A stretch of DNA of 64,000 nucleotides. Origin: Spirosoma fluviale. Its GTDB lineage: Bacteria; Bacteroidota; Bacteroidia; Cytophagales; Spirosomataceae. Shown here piece by piece: positions 45,685 to 46,830 of the stretch (position 1 is the first letter of the stretch; the number at the start of each line of letters is the position of its first letter). The translations under genes and the position numbers were made by a program. The notes beneath the pieces are model-generated. The model was not told the origin of the DNA. It did not search any database and worked only from the letters and a program-made list of their open reading frames with translations. Where the stretch lies: positions 62,001 to 126,000 of the forward strand of contig CAMDJW010000001.1 of NCBI GenBank assembly GCA_945901025.1. Reading direction: 5' to 3'.

Positions 45685-45831
45685 GATTAATTTTATTTAA
45701 TTTCGCCCACATTCTACAAGGATAGTGCCATAAAAACATTGTTCAATAATTTCTGACATATTGTCACATAGTTTATGAATATAGAATAAAGTATATTTCT
45801 CTTATTATATTTGCGATATATTAAAATTATT

Positions 45832-46830
45832 ATGGAGGAAATCAATGATTTTATTTGGGTTGATGAGGCAGAGCCGCATCGTAGTAGGACTCGTGAAATA
45901 ATTAAAAAACATCCTGAAGTAAAAAAATTAATTGGGAAGAATTCTAATACGATGTATTGGATTTTGGCATGTGTGTTTTTACAAATTACAATTGCCTATT
46001 TTATTAAAGATTATTCTTGGTGGGTTATTGTAGGTGCAGCTTGGTTTATTGGAGCTTTTCCAGTACACACTTTATTTGTTTGTATTCATGAATCAGCGCA
46101 TAATTTAATTTATAGGAAAAAATCTTGGAATGTTTTTGCAGGGATCATTGCTAACCTTCCTTCTTTGGCGCCAACAGCTATTTCTTTCAAAAATTTTCAT
46201 TTAAAACATCATGCTTTTCAAGGTGTTCATGAGCTTGATGCTGATTTGCCAGATTATTGGGAAGCTAAATTGATCAATAATTTTTTTATCGGTAAAATGA
46301 TATGGCTACTATTATTTCCTTTTTTTCAGGGTATTCGTACTTATAGATGTATTGAATTGGCCATCATAGACCGATATGTCATTATGAACATTGTGGTCCA
46401 ACTAATTTTTGATGCTGCCATTGTTTATTTTTGGGGTTGGTCAGCTTTAGCTTATCTAGGGTTTAGTTTTCTGTTTTCTGTAGGACTTCATCCACTTGGT
46501 GCTAGGTGGATACAAGAACACTTTTTAGTTTTAGATAAAAAACAAGAAACATTTAGTTATTATGGTGGCTTAAATTCAATTAATATGAATGTAGGATACC
46601 ATAATGAACATCATGATATGCCATCTATTCCTTGGAATAATTTGCCAAAGTTGAAGAATATTGCCCCAGAATTTTATAATAATTTACATTATCATACATC
46701 TTTTGTAAAGTTATTTTTCACTTTTCTGTTTAGTCAAGAAATTGGTCTTTATTCAAGAATTACCAGAAAAGACCGAGGCGGGGTTTCGTTAGTAGATCAA
46801 TCGACACCTGATATCGACTTGATCAAATAA
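45832..46830 (+). CDS. Sphingolipid delta-4 (dihydroceramide) desaturase-family protein
   Basis: Three His boxes HESAHN / HLKHH / HNEHHD. Full-length resemblance to DEGS/DES1: DFIWVDEAEPHRSRTREIIKKHPEVKKLIG; IIANLPSLAPTAISFKNFHLKHHAFQGVHELDADLPDYWE; GLHPLGARWIQEHFLVLDKKQETFSYYGGLNSINMNVGYHNEHHDMPSIPWNNLPKLKNIAPEFYNNLHYHTSF...YSRITRKDRGG. Start at ATG 45832; TATATTTG box at 45806-45813. Confidence 0.88.
   Translation: MEEINDFIWVDEAEPHRSRTREIIKKHPEVKKLIGKNSNTMYWILACVFLQITIAYFIKDYSWWVIVGAAWFIGAFPVHTLFVCIHESAHNLIYRKKSWNVFAGIIANLPSLAPTAISFKNFHLKHHAFQGVHELDADLPDYWEAKLINNFFIGKMIWLLLFPFFQGIRTYRCIELAIIDRYVIMNIVVQLIFDAAIVYFWGWSALAYLGFSFLFSVGLHPLGARWIQEHFLVLDKKQETFSYYGGLNSINMNVGYHNEHHDMPSIPWNNLPKLKNIAPEFYNNLHYHTSFVKLFFTFLFSQEIGLYSRITRKDRGGVSLVDQSTPDIDLIK

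Follow-up and report, generated by a model that had tools for sequence, protein, structure and literature searches.

A sphingolipid delta-4 desaturase (DES/DEGS) family member in an Aquirufa-type bacterium predicted to synthesize sulfonolipids

The sphingolipid delta-4 desaturase (DES/DEGS) family comprises human DEGS1 and DEGS2 together with the plant and fungal DES enzymes. The closest characterised relatives of the protein studied here act on dihydroceramide, while DES2-type members are bifunctional desaturase/hydroxylases and single-function desaturases are the commoner members of the family. Accounts of bacterial sphingolipids usually give them saturated bases. A sulfonic-acid analogue of ceramide, reportedly with a 4-ene base, was described in Cyclobacterium marinus by Batrakov in 1998, and the lipids of Flectobacillus major were reportedly treated by Batrakov in 2000; the 4-ene base does not count as evidence here. 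A review credits Bacteroidota with sphingolipids or sulfonolipids, the two being perhaps mutually exclusive (PMC10191378). RIF-1, a lipid of the sulfonolipid class with a 5-hydroxylated capnine base, acts as a signal in the development of the organisms most closely related to animals (PMC3463246). Within the full-text literature, with most subscription papers outside coverage, no published bacterial DES or sulfonolipid desaturase was found, which is weak evidence of novelty.

Family assignment and conservation of the desaturase

The window, that is, the whole stretch of 64,000 nucleotides analysed, carries the desaturase gene and the features listed in Table 1. Pfam Lipid_DES (PF08557) was found near the N-terminus of the protein, and FA_desaturase (PF00487) scored 78.9 bits (cut-off 29.7). 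Lipid_DES is the family-specific element and is missing from the genome's three further desaturase-like proteins, which were named by eye as AlkB-like (contig C5), CrtW-like (C3), and acyl-CoA-desaturase-like (C1). The sole eukaryotic comparator was a provisional human DEGS1 sequence, used as a lead corroborated by its scores. This sequence reached 74 bits on Lipid_DES. Its BLASTP alignment with the window protein (E 8e-75) spans 319 aa at 40% identity and 58% positives, and no significant alignment was obtained for the acyl-CoA-desaturase-like protein of the same genome (E 0.027). In a FastTree phylogeny with the provisional DEGS1 as its one eukaryotic sequence and outgroups taken only from the same genome, the DES clade including DEGS1 separated from the other desaturases of the genome (support 0.879-0.95). 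Because the Lipid_DES domain, the alignment and the tree agree, the window protein is assigned as a full-length member of the DES/DEGS family, as the preliminary description had proposed, and the likeness is by these scores far beyond chance. A position among ordinary fatty-acid desaturases, which that description had named as a contrary outcome, was not recovered in this tree, in which the other desaturases of the genome represent them. The presence of Lipid_DES, the DEGS1 alignment, and the tree position speak against such an identity. The NCBIfam models CrtW, GntB, and DesA were also rejected as identities, their matches being weak and all below cut-off.

Every His of the three His boxes, together with E259 and D262, is invariant across 39 homologues, so that the boxes previously reported as intact are so, and the DES motifs listed at that time are likewise present in the protein. 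The AlphaFold2 model obtained from the 39-sequence alignment (pLDDT 87.4, pTM 0.88) was compared with the PDB by Foldseek, for which the top matches were two chains of Chlamydomonas FtsHi motor complexes at a TM of about 0.6, followed by AlkB and human SCD1 (E 0.02-0.16). The modelled fold agrees with that of a membrane di-iron desaturase or hydroxylase. Neither the protein nor its profile retrieved any relative from the PDB at the sequence level.

Regarding the start site, an alternative longer reading frame would begin at TTG 45811, which overlaps the TAnnTTTG element, and ATG 45832 is therefore favoured. We take TAnnTTTG to be the Bacteroidota -7 promoter consensus, and the match is hence a putative promoter.

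Table 1. Coordinates of the features at the desaturase locus (window positions) and of the apparent sister-clade sphingolipid gene clusters (locus positions)
Feature	Coordinates	Strand	Basis
DES-family desaturase gene (332 aa; ATG 45832, stop ending 46830)	45832..46830	+	ORF, Lipid_DES + FA_desaturase, genus conservation, dN/dS
TAnnTTTG element, promoter-like	45806..45813	+	sequence TATATTTG, 19 bases before ATG
N-terminal Lipid_DES domain, residues 5-37 (DFIWVDEAEPHRSRTREIIKKHPEVKKL region)	45844..45942	+	Pfam, 58 bits vs curated cut-off 23
His box 1, H86-E-S-A-H90	46087..46101	+	H86, H90 invariant in 39 homologues
His box 2, H123-x-x-H126-H127	46198..46212	+	invariant in 39 homologues
His box 3, H257-N-E-H260-H261	46600..46614	+	invariant in 39 homologues
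DES sphingolipid cluster	L133:4875-15997		
DES sphingolipid cluster	L134:2548-13688		
DES sphingolipid cluster	L135:6963-12460		
DES sphingolipid cluster	L137:5822-17288		
DES sphingolipid cluster	L139:3952-15021		
DES sphingolipid cluster	L153:2120-8633		

The genus is Aquirufa or lies very near to it, and 31 of the 37 genomes assigned to it carry the gene. It is not universal there, since one of the six genomes lacking it is 98% complete. Values of dN/dS against near relatives range from 0.024 to 0.044 (about 0.03), and the gene is conserved under selection. Among the matches listed, protein identity is 80-82% to named Aquirufa species and up to 93% to lake MAGs. Across a phylum-wide sample, Lipid_DES occurred in 41 of 397 genomes, and at least 565 relatives were confirmed in GTDB genomes; searches of viral contigs and of plasmids returned none. 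Judged by these homologues, DES is a widespread bacterial family and not peculiar to the window. Separately, a bacterial DES clade belonging to a different class within the phylum (L051, L052, L053, L055) displays 42-48% identity to the provisional human DEGS1 and lies nearer to it than to the window clade (support 0.998). A link between bacterial and eukaryotic DES through this clade is possible, and if the function proposed below holds, the bacterial clades, this one near DEGS1 among them, would bear on the origin of the eukaryotic ceramide desaturase.

Entry enzyme of the host and gene context of the sister clade

A PF00155 search for acyl-CoA/ACP-condensing (AOS-type) enzymes in the 98.6%-complete genome returned only two, a BioF-like protein and a protein at C1:344528-345733. 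The latter scored 597 bits against 7u7h and 541 bits against 28eh, the "Cysteate-C-fatty acyltransferase", and only 237 bits against the serine palmitoyltransferase (SPT) 3a2b. It is the genome's best match on the NCBIfam SPT model (NF047600), at 291 bits against a cut-off of 640. Its motif SQTYAKALPMP, which in SPTs reads FSASMTP, carries the Lys by which SulA is marked, Ala marking Spt (Radka et al., PMC9304779), and in the tree it falls inside the clade of cysteate fatty-acyltransferase (CFAT). On this sequence evidence, the host encodes CFAT, the entry point to sulfonolipid (capnine) synthesis. No SPT above the family cut-off was found in the genome, nor in the 38 genus genomes searched, which include one assembled as a single contig. 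A ceramide with a modified base, previously suggested for this organism, is thus disfavoured, CFAT being present instead, and the other earlier suggestion, that of a re-purposed desaturase or hydroxylase with a different acyl amide as substrate, fits better. The lack of SPT, formerly held to count against the proposal as a whole, speaks against ceramide and leaves DES membership untouched. In the search for cysteate synthase, five PALP-family proteins were found, of which one is CysM-like; none was assigned that role. The SDRs are too numerous for a 3-ketocapnine reductase to be singled out. The genome's GNAT match, a distant paralogue whose neighbouring genes are neutral, was left out of the evidence for an N-acyltransferase. 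A DAGK/YegS-type lipid kinase gene (L081:10556-11434, on C1) is located about 0.8 kb downstream of CFAT.

In the DES tree, cluster-borne DES are sister to those of Aquirufa/Arcicella/Flectobacillus (joint support 0.995). At six loci (L133, L134, L135, L137, L139, L153), DES forms part of a same-strand gene run that also contains FA_hydroxylase, SPT, and GNAT. An epimerase-type reductase, an inositol-phosphate synthase, and PgpA were each recognised at five of the six, and a CDP-alcohol phosphotransferase at four, that of L137 exceeding the cut-off of NCBIfam PIPSynBT1523. Two of the clusters are partial: at L135 neither an inositol-phosphate synthase nor a PIP synthase was found near DES, and at L153 only hydroxylase, SPT, GNAT, and inositol-phosphate synthase were recognised. 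The six loci apparently represent a bacterial sphingolipid gene cluster, mostly with inositol-head-group genes, and it is only in these Saprospiraceae-type loci that sphingolipid genes adjoin DES. The ten best GNAT matches in a wider sample adjoin SPT in their genomes, which makes the cluster GNAT a reasonable candidate for ceramide synthase. This cluster provides the strongest evidence that the bacterial DES family would work in long-chain-base lipid synthesis.

The SPT of L137 (L137:6529-7764) scored 633.9 bits, slightly under the cut-off. Together with it, SPT-type condensing enzymes at about 490-634 bits on NF047600 were observed at L228-L234, L237, L239-L242, and L245; several of the set adjoin GNAT, and automatic annotation may miss such enzymes. 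The L153 contig is labelled as a Thermoanaerobaculia MAG. Its sphingolipid cluster is of the Bacteroidota type, with 71-87% protein identity, and probably reflects either misbinning of the contig or recent transfer.

In the window, the DES gene is flanked by dnaK on one side and by an alpha-amylase-like gene on the other, a neighbourhood which gave no functional hint in the window genus, and no redox partner was recognised among the adjacent genes. The neighbours vary from genus to genus, and the gene's own context therefore does not fix the substrate. This would leave room for an enzyme acting on another N-acyl amino lipid (of the glycine, ornithine, or flavolipin type), several of which are produced by Bacteroidota (PMC10191378), or on a glycerolipid acyl chain. 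Retention of the DES N-terminal element, the sphingolipid cluster of the sister clade, and the ordinary acyl-CoA-desaturase-like protein already present in the genome all argue against such a substrate, which we consider quite unlikely.

Co-occurrence with CFAT and SPT and the proposed reaction

Among 43 genomes reached through DES loci, CFAT was detected in 41 and SPT in five (four Mucilaginibacter and Chitinophaga rupis), corresponding to 38 genomes with CFAT only, two with SPT only, three with both, and none with neither. The last figure is consistent with a dependence on these enzymes and constitutes no test of it, because all 98 genomes of the class sample possess CFAT or SPT. In that sample, drawn from the same class or closer, DES was present in 8/10 genomes with both enzymes, 7/82 with CFAT and no SPT, and 0/6 with SPT and no CFAT. 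Expressed by SPT, DES occurred in 8 of 16 genomes with the enzyme versus 7 of 82 without it (Fisher p 0.0003, phylogeny not corrected). Despite this overall association, DES persists in lineages having CFAT only. We read the distribution as that of an enzyme which would act on N-acyl long-chain bases, its substrate following the base made by the host. The same counts would arise from loss of SPT with an idle or re-purposed DES retained. SPT and CFAT were encountered together in 10/98 genomes of the class sample (for example L182, L186, L189; those named are two Mucilaginibacter and Chitinophaga rupis), and their coexistence in some genomes speaks against a mutual exclusion of sphingolipids and sulfonolipids.

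With no SPT found, the host base cannot derive from that enzyme and would most likely be supplied by CFAT, for which reason N-acylcapnine, the sulfonic-acid analogue of dihydroceramide, is proposed as the substrate. DES would operate as a multi-pass membrane di-iron enzyme, using O2 together with electrons supplied by a redox partner to oxidise C4/C5 of the N-acylated long-chain base, so that the product would be the sulfonic-acid analogue of ceramide. It is with moderate confidence that we favour this bacterial DES/DEGS member converting N-acylcapnine to a 4,5-unsaturated or, less likely, a 4-hydroxylated sulfonolipid; the catalytic activity, the substrate, and a double bond rather than a hydroxyl are what we infer. 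Counting against N-acylcapnine, the cluster evidence comes from SPT-bearing relatives, the association with SPT also fits a ceramide enzyme kept after SPT loss, no N-acyltransferase, reductase or cysteate synthase could be assigned in the host genome, and one 98%-complete congener is without the gene.

Part of this evidence would also suit a true dihydroceramide delta-4 desaturase, the sphingolipids arising from an SPT missed through an assembly gap or as an unrecognised enzyme, or the dihydroceramide being taken up from other organisms. Its closest characterised relatives have this activity, the sister clade sits in an SPT-bearing cluster, and DES is associated with SPT in the class sample. 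Against it, SPT above cut-off is lacking from the 98.6%-complete genome, from the 38 genus genomes including the single-contig one, and from 38 of the 43 DES-positive genomes, and a failure to recognise it in all of them is unlikely. A dihydroceramide substrate is accordingly held to be very improbable.

The nature of the product also has to be weighed. A C4-hydroxylase of the DES family would yield a 4-hydroxylated, phyto-type capnine base, and no sequence feature separating the two outcomes was found in the window protein. Bifunctional DES2-type members provide a precedent within the family, whereas the greater frequency of single-function desaturases favours the double bond. Hydroxylated capnine bases do exist, as in RIF-1 with its 5-hydroxyl (PMC3463246). 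A hydroxylase is regarded as unlikely.

Extending desaturation of N-acylcapnine beyond the host, many Cytophagales (Aquirufa, Arcicella, Spirosoma, Hymenobacter) could make 4,5-unsaturated sulfono-analogues of ceramide, the DES family serving sulfonolipids in them, while sister lineages use DES in the inositol-sphingolipid cluster. This wider proposal is offered tentatively, as one that may well fail. If true, a defined gene would explain base unsaturation in sulfonolipids, the lipid class that includes RIF-1. Isolates of all four genera exist, and the claim is therefore directly testable.

Comparison with described desaturases and lipid pathways

The window protein shares with the DES/DEGS family (human DEGS1/DEGS2, plant and fungal DES) both Pfam domains and the three His boxes, as well as the N-terminal element and the YSR..R motif near the C-terminus. 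It differs from DEGS1 in lacking the N-terminal glycine for myristoylation (MEEIN, where DEGS1 has MGSRV) and in having GARWIQEH in place of GHFIAEH, and its host possesses no SPT and hence no evident ceramide. With the ordinary membrane fatty-acid desaturases and the AlkB/CrtW-type proteins it has in common the membrane di-iron superfamily PF00487 and the fold, whereas those of its own genome are without Lipid_DES and lie outside the DES clade. The DES of the Saprospiraceae-type sphingolipid cluster belongs to the sister clade and is 64-70% identical to the window protein among the matches listed. That enzyme adjoins SPT, GNAT, FA hydroxylase, reductase, and mostly inositol-phosphate synthase, while the window gene stands alone in a genome that has CFAT in place of SPT. 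Finally, the sulfonolipid pathway of Capnocytophaga, Alistipes, Flavobacterium, and Chryseobacterium (CapB/SulA/CFAT) starts from an entry enzyme with the diagnostic Lys that is also seen in the host. As described (PMC10191378, PMC11211663), it contains no desaturase step, in contrast to the pathway proposed here, in which the DES-family protein would introduce one.
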